A stretch of DNA of 64,000 nucleotides from assembly GCF_000013365.1 (NCBI RefSeq), contig NC_007778.1, positions 4,402,001 through 4,466,000 of the forward strand, written 5' to 3'. Each line of letters opens with the position of its first letter. Position 1 is the first letter of the stretch. The position numbers and the translations under genes are program-made. A model generated the notes under the pieces. The model did no database searches. It saw nothing but the letters and a program-made list of their open reading frames with translations, and was not told the origin of the DNA. Shown here piece after piece: positions 1,381-37,061 of this stretch. Source of the stretch: Rhodopseudomonas palustris HaA2 (GTDB lineage Bacteria; Pseudomonadota; Alphaproteobacteria; Rhizobiales; Xanthobacteraceae).

Positions 1381-1660
1381 CAATCGACCTCCAAAACACT
1401 TGAACGAACTCTAAGCCCACGCCCCGTATCTATACGAGGCTCCAAGATACTTCTCAGACGGCACTAAAACGTTACAACAAAGAATGAAACCCAATACGGC
1501 GGCGGTGCTATCTGCCTCCGACCGACGAACGGAGACTTCTCCCGGACAATGATCGCCTGGATATCGGCGCTGATTGCGCCAACGTGCCCGGCACTATTTA
1601 CGCGCTGCTCATTCGTCTCTGAAATAATACACGAACGCCAATCTTCGTCCGCATAGCACC

Positions 1661-11941: not shown

Positions 11942-11955
11942 TTGACGTGGATCAA
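11942..11955. promoter_or_regulatory. FixK/FNR-type box
   Basis: TTGACGTGGATCAA fits the FixK consensus TTG(A/C)-N6-(T/G)CAA, with TTGA and TCAA half-sites. It lies between the divergent phosphoketolase and BON genes, 32 bp from a second box, and 266 bp from the phosphoketolase start. Confidence 0.7.
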
Positions 11956-11973
11956 CGGTCACGTCGCCCCCGG

Positions 11974-11987
11974 TTGATTGGGATCAA
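11974..11987. promoter_or_regulatory. FixK/FNR-type box upstream of the BON gene
   Basis: TTGATTGGGATCAA is a full TTGA-N6-TCAA palindrome. Its centre is about 71 bp before the BON start, so activation from position -41 would give a leader of about 30 bases. Confidence 0.75.
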
Positions 11988-12051
11988 TGTGTTTGACCTT
12001 CAACCACGGAAGATGCCGCCCGTTAGCGCAGCGGAACTCCAGAGGCCACGC

Positions 12052-12702
12052 ATGTCTGAGTCCCAGCTTCGTCAAAACATCCTTGACGAGTTCGAATTCG
12101 ATCCGAGCTTCAACAGCGGACACATCGCCGTCGCTGTCGAGAAGGACGTGGTGATCCTGACCGGTCACGTCATCAGCTACGCCGAGAAGCTCGCCGCGAT
12201 CGCCGCGACGCGACGCGTCAAAGGCGTGCATGCGATCTCCGAGAGCATCGAGGTTCGCTATCCCTTCACCAGGACCGCCGACGATCAGATCGCGCAGCGT
12301 GCGTCCGATATTCTCGACTGGAACGTTCTGGTGCCGGCGAGTTCGATCGAGGTCCAGGTCGAGAACGGCTGGCTGACGCTGAGCGGCACCGTCGACTGGT
12401 ACTACGAGCGCGCCGCGGCCGAAGACGACGTGCGCAAGCTCGCCGGTGTCGTCGGCGTCACAAACACCATCGTCATCAACAATCCGCTCGGCGATCATTC
12501 CTGCATCCGCGCCAAACTCGAATCCGCACTCGAACGTCACGCGGAGATCGCTTCCAAATGTATCCGTGTCACGGTGGAGAACGGCAATATGGTCGTTCTG
12601 GAGGGCAGCGTCGACACCTGGGACGAGCGCCGCGCGGTTCAAAACGCGGCGTGGTCGACCCCCGGCGTAGCAGCGGTCGATGACCGTCTGATGATCAACT
12701 GA
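12052..12702 (+). CDS. Protein of three BON domains
   Basis: A 216-aa protein made of three successive BON (bacterial OsmY and nodulation) domains of about 65-70 residues each: IAVAVEKDVVILTGHVISYAEKLAA, then IEVQVENGWLTLSGTVDWYYERAAAEDDVRKLAGVVGVTNTI, then IRVTVENGNMVVLEGSVDTWDERRAV. BON domains are thought to bind phospholipid or act in stress responses. No signal peptide or membrane helix is visible at the chosen ATG 12052 (AGAGG upstream), so it is probably cytoplasmic. The start follows the FixK-type box at 11974 by 64 bp, which suggests low-oxygen induction. Confidence 0.88.
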   Translation: MSESQLRQNILDEFEFDPSFNSGHIAVAVEKDVVILTGHVISYAEKLAAIAATRRVKGVHAISESIEVRYPFTRTADDQIAQRASDILDWNVLVPASSIEVQVENGWLTLSGTVDWYYERAAAEDDVRKLAGVVGVTNTIVINNPLGDHSCIRAKLESALERHAEIASKCIRVTVENGNMVVLEGSVDTWDERRAVQNAAWSTPGVAAVDDRLMIN

Positions 12703-12759
12703 CCCCACGCCTCCGCCCGGAGGCGACTCGACGATTTCCGAACCACCCATCCATCACGA

Positions 12760-14211
12760 TCAGGCTTGATCGTCCCGGTTGTCCTGCGAAACCGACGGCC
12801 GACGGGACGGCCGCGCCGGCGCCGCGGCGGCACGGACGATGGTGACAGTGCAGTTCGCCTCGCCCGCGACCTTGGCCGAGACGCTGCCGGCCAGCGTGCG
12901 CAGCACCGAATTGCGCCGCGCCCCGATCAGGATGTGATCGACCCGGCTCGCCTGTGCGAATTCGAGAATCGCCGAGGCCGGATCGACCGCCTCGAGCACA
13001 TGCGCCGTGAGGCGATCGTCGTCGAGTTTCAGCGGCTCGGCCCAGTGCCGCAACGCCACCAGGCGATCGACGTGCTTGTTGTGGCCGTGCTCGTCGAGCG
13101 TCCGGTCGATGGTCATGCGGCCGAGCTTGAGCACGTTGAGGCAGGCGAGCCGCGCCGACGGCAGCGTCGCGAGAATGCGCCCGGCGGTGACCCGCAATTC
13201 GTCGTTCAGCGCAGCGGAGCCCTCGGCGATGTCGATCGCCACCGCGATGATCGGCGCCGACGCCAGATGCGCCGCGAGCGTCTCCTGGCGCGGCCGGGTC
13301 AGTTCCTTGTTGAAGCGCCGGCGCAGCACCGTCTTCCACGGATCGCGCCTCAGCTTCTCGGAACGTGTGGTGAGTTTGACCTCGGTCGGATGGGTCAGAT
13401 CGAACACCAATTGCGCCGCCGTCGGATAGCGCCACTGCGGCTGGATCTCGAGGCAGCGCAGCACGATCTCCTGCAGCCAGGGCGGATAGTCCGGTCGCAA
13501 TTTGCGCGGCGGCACCGGATCGCGCCACAGCCGCCGGCGCATGCCGTACATCGTCTCGGTCTCGCCGAACGGACGGATGCCGGTGGTGAAGAAATACAAC
13601 AGCACGCCGAGACCGAACAGATCGCTGCGCGGATCGTTGCGCACGCCGAGCAGCCGCTCCGGCGCCATATAGGGCGCGGTGCCGAACGGCAGCCGGAATT
13701 CTTCCTGCATCAGGTCGGGCAACTGATCGCTGCAGGCGAGGCCCATGTCGAGCAGCACCGCCTCGCCGCTCGGGCGGAACATGATGTTGCTGGGCTTGAT
13801 ATCGTGATGGATGACGTGCTGGCGGTGCAGATCGGCGACCGCGGCGGCGATCTTCGCCGCGATCCCGGCCGCCTCGTCGTAGGGCAACGGCAGATCCGGC
13901 AGCCGCGACAGCAGCGGCTCGCCGGCGATGCGTTCCATCACGATGTAGGGCTGCGTCGAGAAATCCGCGAGCGCGACGAATTGCGGGACGTGCGGCCCGT
14001 TCAGCCGCGGCATCAGCATCTGCTCCATCTCGAAGCTGACGATCGCGGCGGGGTCTTCGCCCTCGCCCGTTCGCGGGATCTTCATCACCATCGGCATCGG
14101 GTTGTCGGCGCGGCGAACCGCGAACAACTCCGCCATGCCGCCGCGATGCAGCGGGCCTTCGATCAGGTAGCCGTCGACCGTCGAGCCAGGCTCGAACGAG
14201 GGTTGGTCCAT
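12760..14211 (-). CDS. Serine/threonine protein kinase fused to a universal stress protein domain
   Basis: A 483-aa fusion. The N-terminal kinase (about residues 10-275) has a glycine-rich loop LHRGGMAELF, the ATP-binding Lys in MVMKIPR, VIHHDIKPSNIMF for the catalytic loop (HHD instead of HRD), LLDMGLA for DFG, and APYMAPERL. The C-terminal UspA-like domain (about 320-460) has PIIAVAIDIAEGS and the nucleotide signature GARRNSVLRTLAGSVSAKV with a final CTVTIV strand. ATG 14211 is used; a GTG at 14220 overlapping the metallophosphoesterase stop (GTGA) is an alternative. The upstream gene encodes a phosphoesterase in the same transcript, so the pair could phosphorylate and dephosphorylate shared targets. 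Targets are unknown. Confidence 0.88.
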   Translation of the reverse strand: MDQPSFEPGSTVDGYLIEGPLHRGGMAELFAVRRADNPMPMVMKIPRTGEGEDPAAIVSFEMEQMLMPRLNGPHVPQFVALADFSTQPYIVMERIAGEPLLSRLPDLPLPYDEAAGIAAKIAAAVADLHRQHVIHHDIKPSNIMFRPSGEAVLLDMGLACSDQLPDLMQEEFRLPFGTAPYMAPERLLGVRNDPRSDLFGLGVLLYFFTTGIRPFGETETMYGMRRRLWRDPVPPRKLRPDYPPWLQEIVLRCLEIQPQWRYPTAAQLVFDLTHPTEVKLTTRSEKLRRDPWKTVLRRRFNKELTRPRQETLAAHLASAPIIAVAIDIAEGSAALNDELRVTAGRILATLPSARLACLNVLKLGRMTIDRTLDEHGHNKHVDRLVALRHWAEPLKLDDDRLTAHVLEAVDPASAILEFAQASRVDHILIGARRNSVLRTLAGSVSAKVAGEANCTVTIVRAAAAPARPSRRPSVSQDNRDDQA

Positions 14212-14216
14212 GCCGG

Positions 14217-14957
14217 TCACCGCCCCGCCAGCAGTCGATCGGCGAGCCAGATCGGCAGGCCATTGTCGCGAATCCGGCGCGCGGCGCCGTCGACATCGTA
14301 GGGCACCCGGCAATAGGTCAGCTGGTGTTTGACCGTATCGTACAAGCCGTAGGCGGCGGCCGGATTGCCGTCGCGCGGCTGCCCGACCGAACCCAGCACC
14401 GCGAGCCATTGCCGGCCGGGCAGCAGGTGCACCGGTACATCGGCCGTCGGCACGAAGGTGGTCATCTTGCCGGTGACCGACAGTGAATACAGCGCCGGCT
14501 TGTGGACGTGGCCGCAGAACGTCACATGCGCCGCGACCGACTGCATGCTGCGCGAGGCGACCGCGGTGTCGGTCACGTAGATCCAGCCCTCCGGTCGGGT
14601 CGCTTCCGAGTGGACGAACAGCAAATTGGCCTCGTCGTGCTTCATCGGCAGCCCGGCGAGAAACTGACGCTGCGCGACATCGAGCTGGCCGCGCGTCCAT
14701 TCGATCGCCGCCTCCGCTTCGGCATTCATCTGCACCTTCGGATTGCCGATCGCGCTGTCGTGATTGCCGAGAATGGCGACCGCGCCGGCATCGACGAGAT
14801 CGGCCACCGTGCCGACGGTCCAGTCCGGGTCGGCGCCGTAGCCGACATAGTCGCCGAGCAGGATGATCTTCTCGGCTCCCTGCTCGCGCGCGTTGGCGAG
14901 GCATGCCGTGAAGGCCTGCCTGTTGGCGTGGATGTCAGCAAAAAGCGCAAGCAACAC
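14217..14957 (-). CDS. Calcineurin-like metallophosphoesterase
   Basis: A 246-aa YfcE/ApaH-like phosphoesterase. All metal-binding blocks are present: ADIHAN near the N terminus, GDYVGYGADP, LGNHDSAI, FVHSEAT and CGHVHKP. It may act on phosphoproteins or on small phosphodiesters. The start is GTG 14957, chosen because a strong GGAGG lies seven bases upstream and the protein then begins with the expected beta strand VLLALFADIHAN. The gene precedes, and overlaps at GTGA, the kinase-Usp gene, which supports a linked function. The promoter region is shared with the divergent DUF6455-like gene and holds two FixK-type boxes. Confidence 0.88.
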   Translation of the reverse strand: MLLALFADIHANRQAFTACLANAREQGAEKIILLGDYVGYGADPDWTVGTVADLVDAGAVAILGNHDSAIGNPKVQMNAEAEAAIEWTRGQLDVAQRQFLAGLPMKHDEANLLFVHSEATRPEGWIYVTDTAVASRSMQSVAAHVTFCGHVHKPALYSLSVTGKMTTFVPTADVPVHLLPGRQWLAVLGSVGQPRDGNPAAAYGLYDTVKHQLTYCRVPYDVDGAARRIRDNGLPIWLADRLLAGR

Positions 14958-15090
14958 GTCCCACCTCCCATGTTCGCGATCCTCTCTTTGCGAGCGGATG
15001 TCGATTGTTGGCGCCTCACGCCCGCAGGCATGAAACCGCTGTGCCGACGGCCTTTTCTGCCGCGTCCGGTCGGACCGGAACGACCCGTCT

Positions 15091-15104
15091 TTGATCCATC
15101 GCAA
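15091..15104. promoter_or_regulatory. FixK/FNR-type box
   Basis: TTGATCCATCGCAA fits TTGA-N6-GCAA. It is the first of a tandem pair 28 bp apart in the divergent promoter between the phosphoesterase/kinase operon and the DUF6455-like gene, and is the better placed for the minus-strand operon. Confidence 0.6.
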
Positions 15105-15118
15105 CCACGCCACGCTCC

Positions 15119-15132
15119 TTGATCTGGCGCAA
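15119..15132. promoter_or_regulatory. FixK/FNR-type box upstream of the DUF6455-like gene
   Basis: TTGATCTGGCGCAA fits TTGA-N6-GCAA and ends 55 bp before the start codon at 15188, the same distance as the box in front of bchE. Confidence 0.68.
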
Positions 15133-15187
15133 TGGGATGCGGGGCGCGGATGAGTATATCAGCAAAACAGTTGCGTTGGAGGCGATC

Positions 15188-15616
15188 ATGTCATCCGGCA
15201 ATCCGAACACCAGCAACGCGCCTGTGACCGACGCCGTCGCCACCGTCATCAGCGAGTGGGAAGAGATCACCGCCAGTCCGACCGAGCTGGAAGCGTTCGG
15301 ACGGGCGATGGCCAACATGGTGAAAGACCTCGGCCTGACACCCGCCGAAGTGCACGCGCTCGCGACCAAGGGCAGCAGCGCCAAGGAACTACCCTGTCTG
15401 CTCGAAGCGCTGCGGATCAGCATTCGCGCGCTCGCCGAAAAGGAGCCTATGTTGCTCAACGATCTGAGGCGCACCTGCACGATGTGCGAACACAAACGCG
15501 AATGCGACGCGGACATCGCCGCGGGCACGCTGGTGCCGGCCTATCAGAAATACTGCCTGAACGTCGACGCGCTCGACGCGCTTCAGCACGACAACAAGTT
15601 TATCGCGGAGCTCTGA
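15188..15616 (+). CDS. Cys-rich DUF6455-like protein upstream of bchE
   Basis: A 142-aa soluble protein of unknown function. The N-terminal half is helical (EWEEITASPTELEAFGRAMANMVKDLGL). The C-terminal half carries a compact cysteine motif CTMCEHKREC followed by one more Cys (YQKYC), a possible metal or Fe-S site, as in proteins annotated DUF6455. ATG 15188 has GGAGG seven bases upstream. It sits between two FixK-type promoters, immediately before bchE, so it likely acts during microaerobic or phototrophic growth. A redox, ligand-sensing or assembly role is inference only. Confidence 0.8.
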   Translation: MSSGNPNTSNAPVTDAVATVISEWEEITASPTELEAFGRAMANMVKDLGLTPAEVHALATKGSSAKELPCLLEALRISIRALAEKEPMLLNDLRRTCTMCEHKRECDADIAAGTLVPAYQKYCLNVDALDALQHDNKFIAEL

Positions 15617-15725
15617 AGATCGATTCGACCGCGGAGCTCTAGACATCGACGCGGAAGCAGGGCGAGCAGCCCCGCGTGGTCAAGACGCTTGCCAGCGGCC
15701 TACTAACTACCAAAGCACCATTCGT

Positions 15726-15739
15726 TTGATCTGCGTCAA
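15726..15739. promoter_or_regulatory. FixK/FNR-type box of bchE
   Basis: TTGATCTGCGTCAA, a TTGA-N6-TCAA palindrome, 55 bp before the bchE start. Activation from about -41 would put transcription start near 15773. Confidence 0.78.
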
Positions 15740-15746
15740 TATTCAT

Positions 15747-15776
15747 TGACACCTGATGTGTCACTGTTTCTTGACA
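15747..15776. promoter_or_regulatory. PpsR/CrtJ-type operator of bchE
   Basis: Positions 15759-15776 read TGTCACTGTTTCTTGACA, an exact TGT-N12-ACA site with TGTCA/TGACA arms. An additional outward TGACA at 15747-15751 pairs with the same TGTCA half-site over a 7-base spacer. The site would cover the predicted -10 and transcription start, as expected for PpsR repression in oxygen. Confidence 0.75.
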
Positions 15777-15794
15777 ATTATGGGAGAAATGTCA

Positions 15795-17498
15795 GTGCGC
15801 ATCCTTCTGATTCACCCGAATTATCATTCCGGTGGTGCCGAGATCGCCGGCAACTGGCCGCCGGCATGGGCCCCCTATCTCGCGGGCGCGCTGAAGGCCA
15901 ACGGGTTCACCGACATCAAGTTCATCGATGCGATGACCGAGGATACGTCGGACGAACAGCTGGCCAAGATCGTCGCCGACTACCAGCCCGATCTGGTCGG
16001 CGCGACCTCGATCACGCCGTCGATCTACAAGGCCGAGGAGGCCCTGAAGGTCGTCAAGCAGGTGAACCCCAAGATCGTCACCATGCTCGGCGGCGTGCAC
16101 GCGACCTTCATGTATCAGCAGGTGCTGACTGAAGCGCCGTGGGTGGACGTGATCGTGCGCGGCGAAGGCGAGGAGATCGTCGTCGAACTCGCGCGGGCCG
16201 TCGCCTCCGGCAACTGGCCGGCCAATCGCGATGCGATCAAGGGCCTGGCCTACACCGAGGGCATGAACGGCGAGAGCAAGATCGTCGCGACGCCGGCGGC
16301 GCCGACGGTGAAGGATCTCGACGCCATCAGCCCGGACTGGGGCATCCTCGACTGGACGCTCTACAAGTACATCCCGATGAACACCCGGGTCGCGATCCCC
16401 AACATGGCGCGCGGCTGTCCGTTCACCTGTTCGTTCTGCTCGCAGTGGAAGTTCTGGCGCGACTATCGCGTCCGCGATCCGAAGAAGGTGGTCGACGAAA
16501 TCCAGGAACTGGTCGAAAAATACCAGGTCGGCTTCTTCATCCTCGCCGACGAAGAACCCACCATCAACCGCAAGAAGTTCATCCAGTTCTGCGAAGAGCT
16601 GATCGCCCGCGGCCTGAACAAGAAGGTGCAGTGGGGCATCAACACCCGCGTCACCGACATCCTGCGCGACGAGCAGCTTCTGAAGTTCTACAACGAAGCC
16701 GGCCTGATGCACGTGTCGCTCGGTACCGAGGCGGCGGCGCAGCTCAAGCTCGACCTGTTCAACAAGGAAACCAAGATCGCCGACAACAAGAAGGCGATCC
16801 GGCTGCTGCGTGAAGCGGGCATCGTCACCGAGGCGCAGTTCATCGTCGGCCTCGACTCCGAGACTCCGGAGACGCTGGAAGAAACCTATCGCATGGCGAT
16901 GGACTGGAAGCCGGATCTGGCCAACTGGTCGATGTATACGCCCTGGCCGTTCACGCCGCTGTTCAAGGAACTGAGCGACAAGGTCGAAGTGTTCGACTTC
17001 GACAAGTACAATTTCGTCACGCCGATCGTGAAGCCGGCGGCGATGGAACGCGGCGAACTGCTCGACCGGGTGATGAACAATTATCGCCGGTTCTACATGT
17101 ACAAGGCGTTCTTCTCCTACCCGTGGTCGGGCAGCGGGCGGCGCCGTCGCTATCTGCTGGGCTGCCTCAAGGCGTTCCTGAAGGCCGGCTTCGAACGCAA
17201 ATTCTACGACCTCGGCCGGGTCGGCTATTGGGGTCCGCAGTCGAAGAAGAAGGTCGACTTCCACTTCGACACCACCCGCAAGATCTCGCACGCGCAGATG
17301 GCCGACTGGGAAGCCAACGCGGATCGTTCGCGCAAGTCGGCAGCCTCCCAGATGGCCATCGTCTCGGCCTGCGGCGGCGGCTCCGAACAGATGTCGGAAC
17401 CGATCAGTTGCGAAGGCGCCAAGGAGAAATTGGCGGAGACCGTTACCAGCCGCATGGTGGACAACGCCAATGAAGCAGGTTCGCTCACCCGCCACTGA
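15795..17498 (+). CDS. bchE: Anaerobic Mg-protoporphyrin IX monomethyl ester cyclase (BchE)
   Basis: A 567-aa cobalamin- and radical-SAM-dependent enzyme that forms the isocyclic ring E of bacteriochlorophyll without oxygen, taking the oxygen atom from water. The N terminus [24 protein letters not shown] and the B12-binding region ([11 protein letters not shown]) are characteristic. The radical-SAM cluster motif is C208-x3-C212-x2-C215 in [23 protein letters not shown] 15795 is preferred because GGGAG lies eight bases upstream and family members begin M-R-I-L; ATG 15789 is possible but too close to the ribosome site. It overlaps bchJ by 29 bases and is preceded by FixK-type and PpsR-type sites, which agrees with low-oxygen expression. 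Confidence 0.96.
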
Positions 17499-18180
17499 CG
17501 CAGGGACCGGTCCGGCGATCGCCGAGATCGGCCCCAACGCGGTCACGCAACTGATCAACGCCCTCGACGCGGCCGGCCTTCAGCCGGCCGCCCGAGAGAT
17601 TTTTTCAGAAGCGGCCGCAAGCGACTGGCTGGCACATCCTCCGACCGCGATGGTCGACGAGCGCCCTGTCGCGGCGATTCACCAGACCGTGCGTCGGCTG
17701 TTGCCGCCGCAGCAGGCGGCGATCATCCTCGACGACGCGGGGCGGCGGACCGGCGACTACATCCTGGCCCACCGCATTCCGAAGCTGGCGCAAACGGTGC
17801 TGAAATTCATGCCGGCGCCGATCGCGGCCCGGATGCTGACCAAGGCGATCACCGCCCATGCCTGGACCTTCGCCGGCTCGGGCAAGTTTTCGGCCCGCGT
17901 CGGCAGGACGGTGACGTTCGAGATCGCCGCCAATCCGCTGTGCGCCGGCGAGCACGCCGATCATCACGTCTGCGTCTGGCACGCGGCCGTGTTTCAGCGG
18001 CTGTTCCAGGTGCTGGTCTCGCCCTATACGCGGGTCACGGAAACGACCTGCGGAGCGCGCGGCGACGATTGCTGCCGCTTCGTCGCGGACTGGACCACCA
18101 TCCCGGACGCCGCCAACATCTACGCCGACCGACGATCTCAGCCGATCGCGGCAAACACTGAAACCCTTTCCGCGCGTTGA
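17470..18180 (+). CDS. bchJ: BchJ, V4R-domain bacteriochlorophyll biosynthesis protein
   Basis: A 236-aa protein with a C-terminal V4R (4-vinyl reductase) domain: the region from [22 protein letters not shown] to [20 protein letters not shown], including [25 protein letters not shown]. BchJ was originally named a divinyl chlorophyllide 8-vinyl reductase; later work assigns that reaction mainly to BciA/BciB, and BchJ may instead bind or channel Mg-porphyrin. It starts inside the 3' end of bchE, which implies translational coupling. Cys/His residues in the V4R region could bind metal. Identity is well supported by order and motif; the exact function is not settled. Confidence 0.9.
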
Positions 18181-18207
18181 TCCGCGGACGATGTGAGAGA
18201 CAAACCG

Positions 18208-19557
18208 ATGTCGTCTGCCCTCGACAAATACGCCAAGAGCTCGGTGCCGCGCTACACCAGCTATCCGACGGCGCCGCATTTCGCCAAGGATTTTCCGGAG
18301 GCCGTGTATCGTGGCTGGCTCGCCCAGCTCGACACCGACGAGCCGATCTCGCTTTATCTCCATGTGCCGTTCTGCAAGCAGATGTGCTGGTACTGCGGCT
18401 GCAACATGAAGCTGGCGTCGAAATACGGGCCGGTCGCCGACTATGTCGAGAGCCTGATCAACGAGATCGATCTGGTCGCCGATGCGATGCCCGGCACGAT
18501 GCCGGTCCGCCATCTGCATTTCGGGGGCGGCACGCCGACGGTGATCGAGCCCGAGGACCTCGGCGCGATCATGACGCTGCTGCGCGAGCGCTTCGAATTC
18601 GTGCCCGATGCGGAGCTCGCGATCGAGAGCGATCCGCGCACCCTGACCGACGAGATGGTCGCCAAGATCGGCGAACTCGGCTTCACCCGCGCCAGCTTCG
18701 GCGTCCAGGAGTTCGACCCCAAGGTCCAGGCGGCGATCAACCGGATTCAGCCGCCGGAGATGGTCGCGCACGCCATGAGCCGCTTCAAGGCGGCCGGCGT
18801 CGAGCGGATCAATTTCGACCTGATCTACGGCCTGCCCTATCAGACCGCCGAAGATCTGCGTAGCACCGTCGAGCAGTGCGTCGAGATGAAGCCCGACCGC
18901 GTCGCGCTGTTCGGCTACGCCCATGTGCCGTGGGTCGCCAAGAACCAGCGGATGATCCCGGACGATTCGCTGCCGCAGTCGGATCTGCGCGCCGAGCAGG
19001 CCGACGCCGCCGCCGAGGCGCTGGTCAAGGGCGGCTATGTGCGGATCGGCATCGATCACTTCGCGCTGCCCAAGGATTCGCTGGCGATCGCCGCCGCGAC
19101 CGGCGAACTGCACCGCAATTTTCAGGGCTACACCAGCGACGCGGCGCAGACCCTGATCGGGATCGGCGCCACCTCGATCGGTCGGACCCCGAGCGGCTAT
19201 CTGCAGAACATCAGCGAGACCGGCGCCTGGGCGCGCGCCGTCGCGGCCGGCCAGTTGCCGGTGGCGCGCGGGCACGCCCTGACCCAGCAGGACAATCTGC
19301 GGGCGCATGTGATCGAACGGATCATGTGCGACGGCAAGATCGACCTCGCCGCCGCCGGCCGCGCTTTCGGCTGCAGCGATGATTGGTATGCGCCCGAGCA
19401 GGATGCGCTCGCCGAGCTGCAGCGCGACGGCGCCGTGATCTGCGACCAGGGCAAGCTGACGCTGACGCCGGACGGCGTCCGGCTGTCACGCGTGGTCGCC
19501 GCGGTGTTCGATACCTACCTGCGGAATTCGTCGGTGCGGCATTCCATCGCCGTCTGA
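18208..19557 (+). CDS. hemN: Oxygen-independent coproporphyrinogen III oxidase
   Basis: A 449-aa radical-SAM enzyme that decarboxylates coproporphyrinogen III to protoporphyrinogen IX without oxygen. Features: YTSYPTAPHF, LYLHVPFCKQMCWYCGC with Cys56, Cys60 and Cys63 for the [4Fe-4S] cluster, HFGGGTPT, ESDPRTLT, RASFGVQEFD, NFDLIYGLPYQT and GIDHFALP. The full-length C-terminal HemN domain (NLRAHVIERIMCDG) separates it from HemW-type proteins. ATG 18208 begins MSSALDKYAKSSVPRY, as in the family. It lies 27 bases after bchJ, probably in the bchE transcript, so haem and bacteriochlorophyll precursors are made together when oxygen falls. A terminator follows. Confidence 0.95.
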   Translation: MSSALDKYAKSSVPRYTSYPTAPHFAKDFPEAVYRGWLAQLDTDEPISLYLHVPFCKQMCWYCGCNMKLASKYGPVADYVESLINEIDLVADAMPGTMPVRHLHFGGGTPTVIEPEDLGAIMTLLRERFEFVPDAELAIESDPRTLTDEMVAKIGELGFTRASFGVQEFDPKVQAAINRIQPPEMVAHAMSRFKAAGVERINFDLIYGLPYQTAEDLRSTVEQCVEMKPDRVALFGYAHVPWVAKNQRMIPDDSLPQSDLRAEQADAAAEALVKGGYVRIGIDHFALPKDSLAIAAATGELHRNFQGYTSDAAQTLIGIGATSIGRTPSGYLQNISETGAWARAVAAGQLPVARGHALTQQDNLRAHVIERIMCDGKIDLAAAGRAFGCSDDWYAPEQDALAELQRDGAVICDQGKLTLTPDGVRLSRVVAAVFDTYLRNSSVRHSIAV

Positions 19558-19580
19558 AGCTCCAACGCCGTCCACTTGCA

Positions 19581-19610
19581 ACGCGCGCTTCGGCGCGCGT
19601 TTTGCGTTTT
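19581..19610 (+). terminator. Rho-independent terminator after hemN
   Basis: ACGCGCGC-TTCG-GCGCGCGT forms a perfect 8-bp stem with a stable UUCG loop, followed by TTTGCGTTTT. It closes the bchE-bchJ-hemN unit. Confidence 0.85.
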
Positions 19611-19622
19611 GATGCAGGTCAA
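19609..19622. promoter_or_regulatory. FixK/FNR-type box
   Basis: TTGATGCAGGTCAA, TTGA-N6-TCAA, directly after the hemN terminator and 182 bp before the start of the 100-aa protein. The longer distance makes the target promoter less certain than for other boxes here. Confidence 0.6.
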
Positions 19623-19804
19623 TCCGAACAGGTCGCATCAGGTGCATAAGTACCGCCAACGGTAATATGTCAGCGGCTTCCTCCCACCGGCGTACCGCCT
19701 TAACGGAAAATAGCCGATGCCGAGGGCCGGGCCGGCCGCAGTCGCAGATCGTTAAGTGCCAGCGCGTATCGCTGTCGAAGCTCAGACCGATCGAGGTAAC
19801 AACC

Positions 19805-20107
19805 ATGACCCAGAAACTCAAAGTCACCGACGATATGGTCGCCAAGGCCACGGCTGCGTTTCGCGCCGCCGGCGGCCACGACGATATCTGCCTCCGCGCC
19901 GCGCTGGAAGCGGCGCTCGCCAACGAGACGTTCTCGGTCGGCGACGAAGTGACCGCGCATGGCAGCGTCACCGGCATCATCCTGTCGATCAGCGGCGACG
20001 AGGCTCTCATCTCCTGGTCCTGCCGCGGCAAGACGACGACCAAGCTGTCCGAGCTGGACCATATCGACCACGCCAATTCGGTCTCGGCCGAGCATTTCGC
20101 CGCCTGA
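19805..20107 (+). CDS. Conserved-looking 100-aa protein, function unknown
   Basis: I do not recognise a family. The protein begins MTQKLKVTDDMVAKATAAFRAAGGHDDICLRAALEAAL, a helical part with a single Cys, followed by a beta-rich half, VGDEVTAHGSVTGIILSISGDEALISWSCRGKTTTKLSELDHI, that resembles a small SH3-like barrel. No signal peptide or membrane segment. ATG 19805 has GAGG upstream and the codon use fits neighbours. It stands alone between hemN and the VOC gene, behind a FixK-type box, so it may belong to the same low-oxygen response. Confidence 0.75.
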   Translation: MTQKLKVTDDMVAKATAAFRAAGGHDDICLRAALEAALANETFSVGDEVTAHGSVTGIILSISGDEALISWSCRGKTTTKLSELDHIDHANSVSAEHFAA

Positions 20108-20179
20108 GGCGTCGCTCACCGGCCGCGCCGCTGAGGGGCGCAGCTGCCTCGCGGATTTCGATCGGCCCGGTGCCGATCG

Positions 20180-20193
20180 TTGATCCAGGTCAA
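20180..20193. promoter_or_regulatory. FixK/FNR-type box upstream of the VOC/HpaD operon
   Basis: TTGATCCAGGTCAA, a TTGA-N6-TCAA palindrome 64 bp before the VOC gene start; activation from -41 would start transcription near 20227. Confidence 0.75.
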
Positions 20194-20210
20194 CCTCCCG
20201 ACTGCCTGCG

Positions 20211-20231
20211 TTTGATCCACTGCTGATCAAA
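20211..20231. promoter_or_regulatory. Perfect inverted repeat over the predicted VOC operon start
   Basis: TTTGATC and GATCAAA, seven bases each, are separated by seven bases. The spacing is wrong for a FixK box (the TTGA and TCAA arms are too far apart). It lies at the predicted transcription start, where a second regulator or a variant dimer could bind. No T run follows, so it is not a terminator. Confidence 0.45.
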
Positions 20232-20257
20232 TGCAAAAGCAAATTCGGGAGGACATC

Positions 20258-20800
20258 ATGCAGATTCAGCAGATCCACCACGTCGCCTATCGCTGCAAGG
20301 ACGCCAAGCATACGGTCGAATTTTACGGCCGGGTGATGGGGATGGAGCTGATCGGCGCCATCGCCGAGGACAAGGTGCCCTCGACCAAGGCCCCCGATCC
20401 GTACATGCACATCTTCCTCGATGCCGGCGCCGGCAACATCCTGGCCTTCTTCGAACTGCCGAACTCGCCGCCGATGGGCCGCGACCCCAACACGCCGGAT
20501 TGGACCCAGCATATCGCCTTCCAGGTCGCCGACGTCGACGCGCTGATGCGCGCCAAGGAACGCGCCGAAGGATACGGGCTCGACGTCGTCGGCCCCACCG
20601 ACCACACCATCTTCAAGTCGATCTACTTCTGGGACCCGAGCGGCCACCGGCTCGAGGTCGCCACCTGGACCGCGACGCCGCAGCAGCTCGCACAGATGAA
20701 GGACGTCGCCCACGCCATGGTCGACGAATGGGCGGAGACCAAGAAACCGCCGCGCCACACCGCCTGGCTGCACCAGAAAGAATTCGCCGACGCCGAGTGA
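20258..20800 (+). CDS. VOC-family (glyoxalase/extradiol dioxygenase fold) protein
   Basis: A 180-aa vicinal-oxygen-chelate protein with paired beta-alpha-beta-beta-beta modules. Candidate metal ligands are His in IHHVAYRC, His in DWTQHIAFQV and Glu in SGHRLEVATW, the usual 2-His-1-Glu set. It could be a ring-cleavage dioxygenase, an isomerase or a lyase; substrate unknown. ATG 20258 has GGGAGGA seven bases upstream; an in-frame ATG at 20231 lies inside the inverted repeat and is less likely. It is followed after 28 bases by the HpaD-like dioxygenase gene, so the two probably act in one pathway. Confidence 0.85.
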   Translation: MQIQQIHHVAYRCKDAKHTVEFYGRVMGMELIGAIAEDKVPSTKAPDPYMHIFLDAGAGNILAFFELPNSPPMGRDPNTPDWTQHIAFQVADVDALMRAKERAEGYGLDVVGPTDHTIFKSIYFWDPSGHRLEVATWTATPQQLAQMKDVAHAMVDEWAETKKPPRHTAWLHQKEFADAE

Positions 20801-20828
20801 TCTTGCCCCCGCGACGATGGAGTGAAGC

Positions 20829-21680
20829 ATGGGCAAACTGGTGCTCGCCGCGAAGGTGACCCACGTTCCCTCGTTGATGTTGTCGGAGGCCGGCGACAGT
20901 CCACTGAAGCAGGCGCGCGCCGGCGCGGTGGAGTCGCTGCGCGAACTCGGCCGACGCGCCAGGACCCGCGACGTCTCCACCTTCGTGGTGTTCGACACCC
21001 ATTGGCTGTCGAATTTCGGCTACCACGTCAACGCCAATGCCCGGCATCGCGGCTCCTTCACCAGCCACGAAGCGCCGCACATGATCCAGGATCTGCGCTA
21101 CGATCTGCCGGGCGACACCGCGCTCGCCGAAGCGATCGCCAGCGAGGCGGAGAGCGCCGGTCTCAAGGTGCTCGCGCATCAAGTTCCGACGCTGGGGCTG
21201 GAGTACGGCACCATCGTGCCGATGCACTATCTGAATCCCGACGGCTGGGCCAAGGTGGTGTCGATCGCCTCGCCGTTGTTCACCTCGATCGAGGAAAGCC
21301 GCGCGCTCGGCGAGGCGACGCGGCGCGCGATCGATCAGTCCGGCGAGCGAGTGGCTCTTCTCGCCAGCGGATCGCTGTCGCATCGGCTGTGGCCGAACAA
21401 AAACCTCGGCCCGGAGGCCTGGACCTCGATCGCCAGTGAGTTCAATCGCCAGGTCGACCTGCGCGTGCTGCAACTCTGGCAGGAGCGGCGCTACCGCGAA
21501 TTCACCGCGATGCTCCCGGACTATGCGGTGAAGTGCAACGGCGAGGGCGGCATGGGCGACACCGTGATGCTGTTCGCCGCGCTCGGCTGGGACAAGTACG
21601 ACGGCGAGGCGGAGCCGCTTTGCGACTACTTTCCGTCGAGCGGCAGCGGGCAGATCAACGTCGAATTCCATGTCGCGTGA
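20829..21680 (+). CDS. HpaD-like class III extradiol ring-cleavage dioxygenase
   Basis: A 283-aa LigB-superfamily protein that resembles the class III 3,4-dihydroxyphenylacetate 2,3-dioxygenase HpaD along its whole length: GKLVLAAKVTHVPSLMLSE, THWLSNFGYHVN, LGLEYGTIVPMHYLNPD, LLASGSLSHRLWPN, and DTVMLFAALGWDKYDG near the C terminus. His residues in KVTHVPS and DTHW are the expected Fe ligands. The enzyme would need O2 to open a catechol ring. No other homoprotocatechuate genes (hpaE, hpaF, hpaG, hpaH, hpaI) are nearby, so the substrate is open. Co-transcription with the VOC gene under a FixK-type box is unusual for an oxygen-consuming enzyme. Confidence 0.85.
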   Translation: MGKLVLAAKVTHVPSLMLSEAGDSPLKQARAGAVESLRELGRRARTRDVSTFVVFDTHWLSNFGYHVNANARHRGSFTSHEAPHMIQDLRYDLPGDTALAEAIASEAESAGLKVLAHQVPTLGLEYGTIVPMHYLNPDGWAKVVSIASPLFTSIEESRALGEATRRAIDQSGERVALLASGSLSHRLWPNKNLGPEAWTSIASEFNRQVDLRVLQLWQERRYREFTAMLPDYAVKCNGEGGMGDTVMLFAALGWDKYDGEAEPLCDYFPSSGSGQINVEFHVA

Positions 21681-21792
21681 TCTGCGAATGCCTGCCGTTG
21701 TCGAGGTCACGGCCCTCCACGCTTGACAAACCGCCCCGCGGGACGGCGAAATCATCGCGAAACTCGCACGATCCGCTGCCCGTGGGACAGGC

Positions 21793-22449
21793 ATGACCGA
21801 TTTCCGAACGCTGACCTCGTTGCACCTCGCGATTGCGCTGGCCGCCACTGCGCTGCCGTCGCAGGCGCAGGCGCAATGGTGGCCGAGCCGCGCGCCGGTG
21901 GACTACGAGGACTGCATCGAGAAGGGCGAGAAGACCGCCGAGGGCAAGGACGCCAAGGCCGCATTGGCCGCTCAATGCGACGCGAAATTCGCCGGCCGGC
22001 GCAAGCCCGACGGCGGCTACAGCTATTTCGACTTCATGCAGAACCGCAGCTTCGACATCGCCGGGCCGAATCCGACCGCCGAAGAACTGCGCAAGATGGA
22101 CGAGCAGTACACCGCGTTTCTCGACCAGCGGCGCAAGACCATCATCGCAGCGGCGTTCGCGGCGAAACAGCAGCAGATCGCGGCGTTGTCCCAAAGCCAG
22201 CCGCCCGCCGAGGCACGCCCGGTGGCAAAGCCGCAATCGGCTGTGGACAAGTCGCGCCCGACCGCGACCAAGCAGCGTCAGCCGACCGACAGGCCGCGCA
22301 GCAACGACAAGCAGCGGCCGGCACGGGCGACCAAATACGCCTGCAACACCGATCCGGTCTCCTGTGGCTGGGATCATCTTTCCAGCGGCCTCGCCGCGGT
22401 GAAGACGTCGCTGTTCGGCCCGGCTCCCAAGAAAAGACAGGCGAACTGA
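21793..22449 (+). CDS. Secreted protein of unknown function
   Basis: A 218-aa protein with a signal peptide (about residues 8-27: SLHLAIALAATALPSQAQAQ) and then WWPSRAPVDYEDCIEKGEK. The mature part has four Cys (DYEDC, AAQC, YACNTDPVSC), a helical middle, and a Pro/Arg/Lys-rich low-complexity stretch around residues 135-180. The C-terminal block YACNTDPVSCGWDHLSSGLAAV could form a disulfide-closed loop. No family recognised. It is tandem with hpaD but separated by 112 bases, so it may have its own promoter. Confidence 0.75.
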   Translation: MTDFRTLTSLHLAIALAATALPSQAQAQWWPSRAPVDYEDCIEKGEKTAEGKDAKAALAAQCDAKFAGRRKPDGGYSYFDFMQNRSFDIAGPNPTAEELRKMDEQYTAFLDQRRKTIIAAAFAAKQQQIAALSQSQPPAEARPVAKPQSAVDKSRPTATKQRQPTDRPRSNDKQRPARATKYACNTDPVSCGWDHLSSGLAAVKTSLFGPAPKKRQAN

Positions 22450-22508
22450 GCGGCCGCGCGCGCCCATTTTGATCGACCGCAACGCGGTCGACCTCGGAAT
22501 GCCTCACA

Positions 22509-22784
22509 TCAGCGGCTGGACCGCTGGATCACATCCATCAGTTCGGCGATCTTCTGGCGCTGATCGGCCTTGTCGCCGCTTGCGATCGCATGTTCGACGC
22601 AATGCGCGACGTGATCCTTCAGCACCTCTTCCTCGACCCGACGCAGCGCCGCGCGGACCGCGGAGATCTGCGTGACGATGTCGATGCAATAGCGGCCCTC
22701 CTCCAGCATTTTGGAGATGCCGCGCACCTGCCCCTCGATCCTGCCGAGGCGCTTCTGACATGACGCCTTGATGTCCGATTTCAT
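22509..22784 (-). CDS. csoR: CsoR/RcnR-family metal-responsive repressor
   Basis: A 91-aa all-helical repressor. The Cu(I) ligand pattern of CsoR is present: Cys33 (YCIDIVTQI), His58 and Cys62 ([10 protein letters not shown]). The N terminus [13 protein letters not shown] is the family signature. In copper the protein releases its operator. It is divergent from copA, and the short space between them holds an ACCCC/GGTA inverted motif. Another metal or a sulfur ligand (CstR/FrmR type) cannot be excluded, but the copA neighbour argues for copper. Confidence 0.92.
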
Positions 22785-22790
22785 TCGCGA

Positions 22791-22813
22791 TATATACCCC
22801 TACACGGTATGGG
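22791..22813. promoter_or_regulatory. Probable CsoR operator between csoR and copA
   Basis: ATACCCC-TACAC-GGTATGGG, with ATACC/GGTAT arms, resembles G/C-tract CsoR operators. It lies 7 bases upstream of the csoR start and 24 bases upstream of copA, so one site could control both. Confidence 0.6.
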
Positions 22814-22837
22814 TTACAAGCGCCGAGGCGACGCAGG

Positions 22838-25564
22838 ATGCACGACACAGAGCACACCGGGGGCAGCACGGCTGTCAAGGATGCGGGTTGCGGATGCTCG
22901 GCGGAGGCAGCTGTTCCTGCGCCGCCTGCGGCGTCGTCCTGTTGCGGCCGCCACGCGAGCGATCAGCCGATCTCACCTGCGTCCGCCAAGGCGATCGATC
23001 CCGTCTGCGGCATGACCGTCGACCCGGCGTCCAGCAAGCATCGCTTCGACCACGCCGGCACCACCTATCACTTCTGCTGCGCCGGATGCCGCACCAAATT
23101 CGCGGCCGACCCGGAAGGCATTCTGGCCAAAGCCGCCAGGCCGACTGCGGCGCCCAAGCCCGCAGCGCAATTGCATCAACTGACCGACTTCGCCGCACCG
23201 TCGTCCTGCTGCGGCGGGCATGATCATGCCGCACATCACCACGATCACGGCGCGACTGCAGCAGCCGACGGCAAGGTGATCGATCCGGTCTGCGGCATGA
23301 AAGTGGACCCGGCGACCACGCCGCATCGGTTCGATTACCAGGGCCAGACCTATTTCTTCTGCGCGGCGAGCTGCCGCGGCAAATTCGCCGCCGATCCCGT
23401 CTCCTATCTCGACAAGTCGAAAGCGAAGCCGGCGCCGGTGGTGCCGGAGGGCACGATCTACACCTGCCCGATGGATCCGCAGATCCGTCAGGTCGGCCCG
23501 GGAAGCTGCCCGATCTGCGGCATGGCGCTCGAACCCGAGCTGGTGTCGCTCGACGCGCCGCCGAATGCCGAACTGATCGACATGACCCGGCGTTTCTGGA
23601 TCGGCCTCGCGCTGGCGCTGCCGGCGGTCGTGCTGGAAATGGGCGGCCACCTCGTTGGTGGTCACGGCTTGATCGATCCTGCGCTGTCGAATTGGATCCA
23701 GCTCGCCTGCGCGACGCCGGTCGTGCTGTGGGCCGGCTGGCCGTTCTTCGTCCGCGGCTGGCAGTCGCTGGTCACGCGCAACCTCAACATGTTCACGCTG
23801 GTCGCGATGGGCACCGGCGTCGCCTATGTCTACAGCCTGGTCGCGACGCTGGCGCCGCAGCTGTTCCCACCGGCCTTCCAGAGCCATGGCGGCAGCGTGC
23901 CGGTGTATTTCGAGGCCGCAGCGGTGATCACCGTGCTGGTGCTGCTCGGCCAGGTGCTCGAACTGCGCGCCCGCGAGGCGACCTCCGGCGCGATCAAGGC
24001 ACTGCTCACCCTCGCGCCGAAATCCGCACGGCGAATCGCGGCGGACGGGACCGACCACGAGGTCGAGATCGACAGCCTCGCGGTCGGCGACAAGCTCCGC
24101 GTCCGCCCCGGCGAAAAGGTGCCGGTCGACGGCATCATCCTCGAGGGACGCTCGACGCTCGACGAATCGCTGGTGACCGGCGAATCGATGCCGGTGACGC
24201 GCGAGGCCGGCGGCAAGGTCGTCGCCGGAACGCTCAACCAGGCCGGCGGCTTCGTGATGCGCGCCGAACAGGTCGGCCGCGACACCGTGCTGTCGCAGAT
24301 CGTGCAGATGGTGGCGCAGGCGCAGCGATCGCGCGCGCCGATCCAGCGCGTCGCCGACCTCGTCGCGGGCTGGTTCGTGCCGGCCGTGGTGCTGGCCGCG
24401 CTGGTCGCGTTCGCCGCCTGGGCGACCTTCGGCCCCGAGCCGCGGCTGACCTTCGCGCTGGTCGCCGCGGTCAGCGTGCTGATCATCGCCTGCCCGTGCG
24501 CGCTCGGTCTCGCCACGCCGATGTCGATCATGGTCGGCGTCGGCCGCGGCGCGCAGGCCGGGGTGCTGATCCGCAACGCCGAAGCGCTGGAGCGGATGGA
24601 GAAGGTCGACACGCTGGTGATCGACAAGACCGGCACGCTGACCGAAGGCAAGCCGAAGGTGGTGGCGATCGCCACCGCGAGCGGCTTCGACGAGGCCGAA
24701 TTGCTGCGGCTCGCGGCCGGCGTCGAACGCGCCAGCGAACACCCGCTCGCGCACGCCATCGTCACCGCCGCCAGTGATCGCAGTCTCGACCTCGCGCCGG
24801 TCGACGGGTTCGAGGCGCCGACCGGCAAGGGCGCGACCGGCCGGGTCGCCGGCCGTTCGGTCGTGATCGGCAACGTCGACTATCTCGCTTCGCTCGGGAT
24901 CGACACGGCCCCGCTCGCCGACATAGCGGAGCATCACCGCGCCGACGGAGCCACCGTGGTCAGCGTCGGCATCGACGGGCGGTTCGCCGGATTGATCGCG
25001 ATTGCCGATCCGGTGAAAGCATCGACGCCGGACGCGTTGCGCGCACTCGCCGCCGAAGGCCTCCGGGTGATCATGCTGACCGGCGACAACCGAACCACGG
25101 CGCAGGCCGTCGCCCGAAAACTCGGCATCGCCGATGTCGAAGCCGAGGTCCTGCCCGATCAGAAGAGCGCGGTGGTCGAAAAGCTGCGCAAGCAGGGCCG
25201 CATCGTCGCGATGGCCGGCGACGGCGTCAACGACGCTCCGGCATTGGCCGCCGCCGATGTCGGCATCGCGATGGGAACCGGAACCGACGTGGCGATGGAG
25301 AGCGCGGGCATCACGCTGCTGAAGGGCGACCTTGGCGGCATCGTTCGCGCGCGAAAACTGTCCCAGGCGACGATGCGCAATATCCGGCAGAATCTGTTCT
25401 TCGCCTTCATCTACAATTCGGCTGGAATCCCGATCGCCGCCGGCATTCTGTATCCGAGCTTCGGCCTGCTGCTGTCGCCGATCATCGCCGCAGCGGCAAT
25501 GTCGCTGTCGTCGGTCAGCGTGATCGGCAATGCCCTGCGGCTGCGCGCCACCTCGCTGGATTGA
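22838..25564 (+). CDS. copA: Cu(I)-exporting P1B-type ATPase with two YHS domains
   Basis: A 908-aa copper efflux pump. Instead of HMA domains, the N terminus has a Cys-rich start ([15 protein letters not shown]), two YHS/TRASH modules ([19 protein letters not shown]...[10 protein letters not shown] and [19 protein letters not shown]...[10 protein letters not shown]) separated by a His-rich linker ([10 protein letters not shown]), and a heavy-metal-binding block [22 protein letters not shown]. The ATPase core has the A-domain [16 protein letters not shown] (Cys552, Cys554), phosphorylated Asp596 in [29 protein letters not shown], and Cu(I) signatures FIYNSAG and MSLSSVSV. Normal core length. 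The divergent csoR and shared operator make it copper-inducible. Confidence 0.95.
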
Positions 25565-25597
25565 GCATCCGTTGCGACTGATAGCCGCCCGCGGCCA

Positions 25598-25611
25598 TTG
25601 ATCTACCGCAA
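25598..25611. promoter_or_regulatory. FixK/FNR-type box upstream of the hemerythrin gene
   Basis: TTGATCTACCGCAA fits TTGA-N6-GCAA and ends 85 bp before ATG 25697, so a start site near 25645 is plausible. Confidence 0.65.
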
Positions 25612-25696
25612 GGATCGGCGCGCATCGGCCACTATCGTCCGCGCTGGATTTTGCCGCAGCTGCGGCCTTCCGGTCAGCGAGCAGTCGAGGTCGGCC

Positions 25697-26290
25697 ATGT
25701 CACGAATGATTGAATTACTTCACGACGAGCACCGCAACATCGCGAAGCTGCTCAACGTCATCGAACACGAACTCAGCGTGTTCGATCGTCGCGAACGGCC
25801 CGACTACGAGATCTTCCAGGCCATCATCCAGTACTTCCGCGAGTATCCGGAGGCCTGCCATCATCCGAAGGAGGATGTGGTCTACCAGATCCTCAAGGAA
25901 CGCAACCCGGCCGTCGCCGGCGCCGTCGGCGACGTCGAAGCCGAGCACGAGCTGGAGGGCGAACGCCTCGACCGTTTCGCCAAGGTGGTCGAGGACGTCC
26001 TCGCCGACCAGGAATTGCCGCGCGAGGCCTTCCACGCCGCCGCCCAGGAGTTCCTCGAGCATCAACGCCGCCACATGGCGAAAGAGGAACAGTTGCTGTT
26101 CCCGGCCGCGCTCGAGACCCTGACCGACGATGACTGGGCCAGGATCGACGCGCGGATCGAGGAGCGCAAGGACCCGATGTTCGACGGCGAGACCGCGAGC
26201 AAGTTCCACAACCTCTACGCGACCATTCTGCGCTGGGAGCAGGAAACCCAGGAAGACCGCAGCAGGGCCGCGGCGGCCGCCGTGCGCTGA
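25697..26290 (+). CDS. Hemerythrin-like (HHE) protein
   Basis: A 197-aa helical protein with the hemerythrin-like pattern of di-iron ligands: LLHDEHRNIAKLLNVIE, the EACHHPKEDVVYQ helix, AEHELEGERLDRF, and EHQRRHMAKEEQLLFPAA. Such proteins bind O2 or NO or protect Fe-S clusters. ATG 25697 has GAGGT about seven bases upstream; a longer in-frame reading from TTG 25598 would begin inside the FixK-type box and is rejected. An oxygen/NO-binding role fits the box, but ligand and partner are inferred. Confidence 0.88.
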   Translation: MSRMIELLHDEHRNIAKLLNVIEHELSVFDRRERPDYEIFQAIIQYFREYPEACHHPKEDVVYQILKERNPAVAGAVGDVEAEHELEGERLDRFAKVVEDVLADQELPREAFHAAAQEFLEHQRRHMAKEEQLLFPAALETLTDDDWARIDARIEERKDPMFDGETASKFHNLYATILRWEQETQEDRSRAAAAAVR

Positions 26291-36909: not shown

Positions 36910-37061
36910 GAGAACCCATTGCAGGAGCCGACCGAGCCGTAACCCGCGGGACCCGATGCGCTATTGCGGAAGATCAATTGCGCGGACCTCCGGGCGTGAT
37001 CAAATTTCCGTTGGCGTCGCGGACCTCGTCCGCCGTTCATGACGCGGGCGAAGGGATCCGA

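Follow-up and report, generated by a model that had tools for sequence, protein, structure and literature searches.

The closest described system to the locus reported here is the FixK regulon of Rhodopseudomonas palustris strains CGA009 and TIE-1, which belongs to the same genus, uses the same box, and has FixK and AadR, a BON protein, a phosphoketolase, and the bchE group in common with it. Published results are cited here from excerpts of the papers concerned. In TIE-1, Rpal_1868 (osmY, BON) and its neighbour Rpal_1869 (phosphoketolase) are putative FixK targets, and in a fixK mutant the BON mRNA dropped 145-fold on succinate and 39.5-, 18.7-, 2.8-, 26.3-, and 12.4-fold on five further substrates (PMC3050613). 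RPA1673 and RPA1672 are FixK-dependent in R. palustris, and the characterised FixK regulon of this species includes orthologue group 1987 (bchE-type cyclase) and group 1230 (oxygen-independent coproporphyrinogen oxidase) (PMC2908626). Group 1230 is perhaps another hemN copy. RPA1666 and RPA1667-1668 rise anaerobically (PMC6974649, PMC12844201), and bchE is RPA1668 (PMC13289028). Here we analyzed a window of 64,000 nucleotides from R. palustris HaA2 (NC_007778.1, positions 4,402,001 to 4,466,000), whose genes were matched to these RPA and Rpal tags by orthology inferred from names and gene order. Positions 11942-25611 of this window hold an island of FixK/FNR-type boxes, which is very probably a chromosomal cluster of the known low-oxygen regulon of FixK, with AadR, in Rhodopseudomonas. 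A sequence-only reading had proposed such an island. As a promoter cluster it is upheld by the enrichment of boxes, their conservation at orthologous places, class II spacing to the -10 element, and the presence of cognate regulators, while its inclusion of a phosphoesterase/kinase-universal stress protein (kinase-Usp) pair is unsupported.

We scanned the window for TTGA-N6-KCAA and obtained 17 strand matches at 11 distinct sites: 11942, 11974, 15091, 15119, 15726, 19609, 20180, and 25598, plus 22469, 36964, and 42521. The first eight had been listed at these very coordinates in the sequence-only reading, which overlooked the other three, of which 36964 is conserved. Window gene starts were picked from ribosome-binding sites and alignment. 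Against these gene calls all eight listed boxes are intergenic, as claimed, and sit in a share of 1,689 of 17,398 bases. In 100 dinucleotide shuffles of the window, the mean was 1.67 strand matches and the maximum 6, so none reached 17; the excess is real, and an earlier estimate of less than one box by chance was slightly low. A reversed control of the wider form TTG[AC]-N6-[TG]CAA gave one site in the window. Two of the additional sites look like chance: 22469 lies between two convergent gene ends and is present in one of five relatives, and 42521 is within a coding region.

Genome-wide scans covered one contig of 5,331,656 bases and, like that of the window, used consensus patterns. The strict form TTGATNNNNRTCAA gave 46 strand matches (31 distinct sites by count) versus 2 for its reversed control, and the mixed form TTGATYNNNCGCAA gave 25 versus 0. 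The loosest form, TTGANNNNNNGCAA, gave 127 versus 75; thus, among GCAA boxes only the TTGATY...CGCAA subset is trustworthy alone. When the two well-behaved box types are pooled, 9 of 56 sites (22469 counted among the nine) fall within the 13.7 kb from 11942 to 25611, which agrees with the proposal of at least eight boxes in about 14 kb. Random placement of 56 sites never put nine in 13.7 kb (0 of 20,000). For the strict class alone, none of 20,000 simulations reached five of 31 sites in 8.24 kb, and with the adjacent pair counted once, four of 30 occurred in nine of 20,000. The densest other 14-kb stretch, starting at 1,558,306, has four sites, with the fixK and aadR-like genes on either side.

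The boxes, the genes they precede, and the associated elements are as follows.

9322-11676, minus strand: phosphoketolase (PF09364/PF03894/PF09363, NF003619)
11942-11955: FixK/FNR-type box TTGACGTGGATCAA (TTGATCCACGTCAA on the minus strand), on the phosphoketolase side
11974-11987: FixK/FNR-type box TTGATTGGGATCAA, before the BON gene
12052-12702, plus strand: three-BON-domain protein, OsmY-like (PF04972, three stretches)
15091-15104, plus strand: FixK-type box TTGATCCATCGCAA, the more upstream of two tandem boxes ahead of the DUF6455-like gene
15119-15132, plus strand: FixK-type box TTGATCTGGCGCAA, before the DUF6455-like gene
15155-15160, plus strand: -10-like TATATC, at class II distance from the box at 15119
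15188-15616, plus strand: DUF6455-like protein (C-x2-C-x5-C-x16-C-x-N)
15726-15739, plus strand: FixK/FNR box TTGATCTGCGTCAA, before bchE
15759-15776, plus strand: TGT-N12-ACA element between box and bchE, recognised from sequence
15789-17498, plus strand: bchE, anaerobic Mg-protoporphyrin ester cyclase (TIGR02026)
17470-18180, plus strand: bchJ (TIGR02019)
18193-19557, plus strand: hemN-type radical SAM protein (PF04055; PF06969 below its cut-off)
19609-19622, plus strand: FixK/FNR box TTGATGCAGGTCAA, before the orphan gene
19805-20107, plus strand: orphan protein of 100 amino acids
20180-20193, plus strand: FixK/FNR box TTGATCCAGGTCAA, before the VOC-HpaD pair
20211-20231: palindrome TTTGATC-N7-GATCAAA over the predicted VOC -10
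20258-20800, plus strand: VOC (glyoxalase/dioxygenase superfamily) protein (PF00903)
20829-21680, plus strand: HpaD-Fe type extradiol dioxygenase, LigB (TIGR02298, PF02900)
25598-25611, plus strand: FixK-type box TTGATCTACCGCAA, before the hemerythrin gene
25633-25638, plus strand: -10-like TATCGT, at class II distance
25697-26290, plus strand: hemerythrin HHE-domain protein (PF01814)
35635-36909, minus strand: HlyD-type adaptor, first gene ahead of two ABC transporter genes (named by eye)
36964-36977, minus strand: FixK-type box TTGATCTTCCGCAA, 54 bases before the HlyD-type gene

The boxes are conserved in relatives. The closest named BchE relatives are five Rhodopseudomonas records with 81-93% identity, and orthologous places were counted in five named Rhodopseudomonas loci (L016-L020), each denominator being the loci that hold the gene. 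A box occurs at the orthologous place before the BON (5/5), phosphoketolase (4/4), DUF6455-like (5/5), bchE (5/5), orphan (5/5), VOC (3/3), and hemerythrin (5/5) genes, and the reversed control gave 0 upstream of each boxed gene. Neighbouring island genes served as an internal control: kinase-Usp, bchJ, hemN, unk218, and copA have a box in 0/5 each, LigB in 0/2, and csoR in 1/5. For bchE, a box was found in 64 of 80 loci, compared with 0 of 80 for the reversed control. Loci for the wider family searches were the best matches, up to 30 per query, rather than a random draw.

Promoter geometry points the same way. In seven promoter groups, phosphoketolase being left out, each offset downstream of the box was scored for its resemblance to TATAAT, with one base of slack. 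The mean over the seven groups tops at 21-22 nt after the box (3.6, with 3.2 at 20), and the other offsets from 10 to 40 score 1.9-2.7. All seven groups exceed their own mean at 21-22 nt, and four of them (BON, DUF6455-like, bchE, and hemerythrin) have their maximum there, the BON peak spanning 20-22 nt. This peak fits a box centre near -41.5, which is class II geometry, and the transcription start is predicted about 41 bp after each box centre. Measured from the end of the box to the gene start, the distances are 64 bases for BON, 55 for the DUF6455-like gene (from the nearer box), 64 for VOC, and 85 for hemerythrin, all inside the 55-85 bp that had been given for five genes; bchE, the fifth, falls short at 49. 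The distance is 265 bases for phosphoketolase, 182 for the orphan gene, and 133 for the phosphoesterase.

The genome encodes suitable regulators. HTH_Crp_2 has 15 matches in the genome, from which 13 proteins were recovered, and four of these Crp-family proteins (L003, L004, L006, and L007) carry an E-x-x-S-R recognition helix. L003 matches the solved Bradyrhizobium FixK2 (4i2o) at an E value of 2.1e-114 with an identical recognition helix, and its gene adjoins genes looking by eye like fixJ and fixL; we identify L003 as FixK, based on this homology. L004 has an N-terminal cysteine cluster, as described for AadR (PMC4999443). These cysteines, together with its genomic place, suggest that L004 is AadR-like, and its gene itself carries a box.

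Boxes, conservation, spacing, and regulator genes are all seen here, and from them we infer binding and an oxygen response of the following kind. As oxygen falls, FixLJ would induce FixK, and AadR, an FNR-type protein, would become active at low oxygen. FixK or AadR dimers would bind boxes of the form TTGA(T/C)-N4-(A/G)TCAA or of the mixed form TTGATY-N3-CGCAA, whose centres lie about 41 bp upstream of the start of transcription. The bound dimers would activate sigma-70-type promoters in class II fashion. Genes switched on would be those for the BON protein and, more weakly, phosphoketolase; the DUF6455-like cysteine protein; bchE, helped by an added PpsR-type element, with bchJ and hemN following presumably by read-through; the orphan protein; the VOC-HpaD pair, with its added palindrome; and the hemerythrin. 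The nearby HlyD/ABC genes would respond through the same kind of box.

Which regulator occupies the boxes is a matter of inference, as FixK, AadR, and a DNR-type protein are indistinguishable from box sequence alone. It is possible, though we think it doubtful, that the boxes are bound mainly by AadR, an FNR-type protein that senses oxygen directly, or by a nitric oxide (NO) regulator of the DNR type, and that the island answers anoxia or NO rather than microaerobiosis. The four proteins with the E-x-x-S-R helix, the box at the AadR-like gene, and the report that predicted FNR, FixK, and DNR targets are virtually identical (PMC2908626) fit this alternative. It sits poorly with the strong FixK dependence of the TIE-1 BON gene in anaerobic phototrophy (PMC3050613) and with the inclusion in the R. 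palustris FixK regulon of RPA1672, RPA1673, and the bchE group (PMC2908626). Because aadR mRNA was also lower on several substrates in the TIE-1 fixK mutant (PMC3050613), some FixK effects may be indirect.

Several observations count against a FixK/AadR cluster that takes in all of these promoters. The expression support for FixK dependence comes from R. palustris strains other than HaA2, and bchE has no box in 16 of 80 loci. The phosphoketolase box, besides its distance of 265 bases, has no convincing -10 by eye, and on five of six substrates phosphoketolase mRNA in the TIE-1 fixK mutant was 0.6, 1.1, 0.7, 1.5, and 2.1 of the wild type (PMC3050613). Its mRNA was down 9.4-fold on Fe(II) in the same mutant (PMC3050613); overall, the evidence for phosphoketolase membership is weak. 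The best -10 offset is 16-17 for VOC, 37-39 for the orphan gene, and 48 for HlyD, whose promoter scores weakly (2.5) where a -10 is expected. The -10 test also lacks independent samples, because sequences within a promoter group are related. As for the phosphoesterase, a box lies upstream in 5/5 relatives, but the region is common to the DUF6455-like gene and the start is uncertain, and either box is 94-226 bp from the projected start in relatives. Control of the kinase-Usp/phosphoesterase pair, described earlier as box-fronted, is unsupported and at most a possibility: the box is shared with the DUF6455-like gene, and kinase-Usp has none of its own in any of the five relatives.

Some of these points suit a narrower account, in which only the BON, bchE, DUF6455-like, and hemerythrin boxes are functional and those of phosphoketolase, the orphan gene, VOC, and HlyD are kept for other reasons or bound without effect. 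Phosphoketolase was clearly responsive on one of six substrates in TIE-1 (PMC3050613), and the best -10 offsets of VOC, orphan, and HlyD lie away from 21-22 nt. Nevertheless, the boxes are conserved amid varying flanks at 10 of 10 orphan loci, at 15 of 15 HlyD loci examined from the 16 genus genomes, and at 5 of 5 syntenic VOC loci (window included in each), and we regard this account as unlikely. Finally, intergenic sequence somewhat favours FNR boxes, which are AT-richer than a window of 66% GC, but the reversed strict and mixed patterns, of the same composition, recover next to nothing genome-wide or upstream of the genes tested in L016-L020, chance as the cause of the boxes is ruled out by these controls and the shuffles, and a coincidence of AT-richer intergenic sequence would be extraordinary.

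Within the FixK/AadR cluster, the DUF6455-like gene is notable for a box that goes with it beyond the island. The box at 15091 is kept in some relatives and missing in others, and a box within the 15119 band is present in 5/5. Alignments show a TATATC-like sequence in the DUF6455-like promoters of close relatives, though the spacer varies. Related genes occur in 70 of 149 genomes of the window's own family, and a box is found 45-100 bp upstream in 28 of the best 30 loci (window included). The island arrangement, with bchE, phosphoesterase, and kinase-Usp alongside, is also found in two other genera (g6 and g46). With ten syntenic loci omitted and the second copy of this genome added, a box falls within a 120-bp upstream band, fixed after the distances had been seen, at 20 of 21 non-syntenic loci; the remaining ~68 kb of the same loci have 8 boxes, and the reversed control gave none. 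These 21 loci come from ten other genera and this genome, and their gene neighbourhoods differ while the box is retained. Thus, the box goes with the gene. A class-wide search, which scored up to 10 candidates per genome, found the family in at least 19 of 387 genomes. Among 19 loci outside the window's family, five without the cysteine motif were dropped, and a box lies within the expected band at four of the 14 kept; at two of these 14 (L217 and L230) the scored motif is well away from the matched place. We therefore describe the association as a family-level rule with scattered wider cases.

Two loci with genes of this type are recorded separately. The second DUF6455-like gene in this genome (L210, G000:C1:5244590-5244988) has box TTGATCTGGCGCAA about 66 bp upstream. 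In a distant genome (L216), two convergent genes for DUF6455-type cysteine proteins (1471-1875, plus strand, and 1935-2594, minus strand) each have an FNR-type box nearby.

The four cysteines of the DUF6455-like protein are invariant in 15 alignment rows and fall in the part aligned to the C-terminal half of the PF20056 profile. The window protein scores 15.9 bits against DUF6455 (PF20056), under the gathering score of 23.7, and 14 of the 15 alignment members match at E values up to 0.1 (best 2.8e-7). A search of the alignment against solved structures gave nothing credible (best E value 0.0047, a 'CAP repeat' chain), and a structure model from six sequences, with a mean predicted local distance difference test (pLDDT) score of 54.7, is too poor to show a site. 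In the single paper found by name, a DUF6455 gene is among the Azospirillum transcripts that change with ethylene (PMC11819568). Our proposal for this family is speculative: it may be an unrecognised, widespread low-oxygen effector, a small protein that would bind a metal or [4Fe-4S] cluster through C-x2-C-x5-C-x16-C. Its gene would stay under FixK/FNR control in each new location through a box that hardly varies (often TTGATCCAGCGCAA), and the protein would act below FixK, either as a protein partner or as a further switch sensitive to redox state or NO. The N-terminal cysteines of E. coli FNR share the spacing C-x2-C-x5-C. There is almost no literature on the family, yet the low-oxygen box recurs with it in ten other genera, and this makes its function directly approachable.

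The other boxed genes differ in how far the box extends beyond the island. Between the box and bchE, the TGT-N12-ACA element at 15759-15776 resembles the PpsR/CrtJ motif. The orphan gene was found in 10 of the 149 family genomes searched. An in-frame ATG at 19667 was rejected as its start, as it is not conserved whereas 19805 is. The orphan leader is variable except for short blocks, and an Rfam search of window positions 9000-38500 gave no match at the gathering score and thus lends no support to a structured RNA leader of known type. A structure model of the orphan protein from six sequences (mean pLDDT 51.0) is too poor for a fold search. For VOC, among 27 loci tested, the box is present at five syntenic loci, the window being one, and at one other (L182); it is therefore a feature of the island copy rather than of the VOC family. 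The palindrome over the VOC -10 occurs in 5/5 syntenic loci and in 0/15 other VOC loci examined. This palindrome is a possible second operator, for a further regulator. The hemerythrin box is found at 12 of 19 loci, comprising ten syntenic ones (window included), two of four more distant ones (44-49% identity), and none of five weak homologues. In CGA009, the hemerythrin-domain protein RPA1659 shows a significant difference between growth with and without oxygen, the direction being unstated in the excerpt (PMC12844201); by position, RPA1659 is probably the orthologue of the island hemerythrin. HlyD and ABC genes are predicted FixK targets (PMC2908626).

Two boxes elsewhere in the genome, where neighbouring genes were named by eye, were also recorded. 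Box TTGATCTATCGCAA (L246, G000:C1:5034694) is at the start of a bacteriophytochrome-like gene adjoining a response regulator gene, and may connect the low-oxygen regulon with the sensing of light. Box TTGATCAGGCGCAA (L247, G000:C1:5067687) lies between lipid-carrier-like and UbiD-like genes and resembles the Rhodobacter sphaeroides FnrL site at RSP0466/0467-ubiD (PMC2908626).

The sequence-only reading also held that several of these genes had never been joined into one response. Because membership is partly published, this can be so for at most some of them: BON, phosphoketolase (on Fe(II)), and bchE were already known to be FixK-dependent (PMC3050613, PMC2908626). A literature search on RPA1659, 1660, 1663-1665, and 1667-1673, with tags inferred as above and the CGA009 gene list of Rey and Harwood 2010 outside its scope, found nothing in excerpts on the DUF6455-like, orphan, and VOC genes. 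Judged from sequence, the conserved boxes before the orphan gene, the VOC/HpaD pair, the hemerythrin gene, and above all the DUF6455-like gene look new. Together, these results replace an impression gained from sequence by a promoter map that can be tested, and they propose further members (DUF6455-like, orphan, VOC-HpaD, hemerythrin, and HlyD/ABC) for a regulon that has been known, in a model phototroph, from its role in photosynthesis and respiration.

Beyond R. palustris, three described regulons resemble the island in part. The FixK2 regulon of Bradyrhizobium diazoefficiens uses TTG(A/C)-N6-(T/G)CAA boxes, including GCAA half-sites, and its targets include phosphoketolase bll2518 (GCAA-type box TTGACCTCACGCAA) and universal stress, HlyD-type, and hemN2 genes; in contrast to the island, the targets described in the excerpt include no bchE, and the gene sets overlap partly (PMC9104804). 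In the R. sphaeroides FnrL regulon, bchEJGP and hemN are targets with such boxes in chromatin immunoprecipitation on arrays (ChIP-chip), although the regulator is of the FNR type and no further island gene was recognised among the targets described in the excerpt (PMC2908626). In the Anr regulon of Pseudomonas aeruginosa, a single FNR-type regulator governs a hemerythrin (mhr), a cbb3 oxidase, and hemN (PMC12403760), but this organism is a gammaproteobacterium and the hemerythrins are likened by name, not by orthology. Set against these systems, the island represents a known kind of regulon with a gene content that is partly new.

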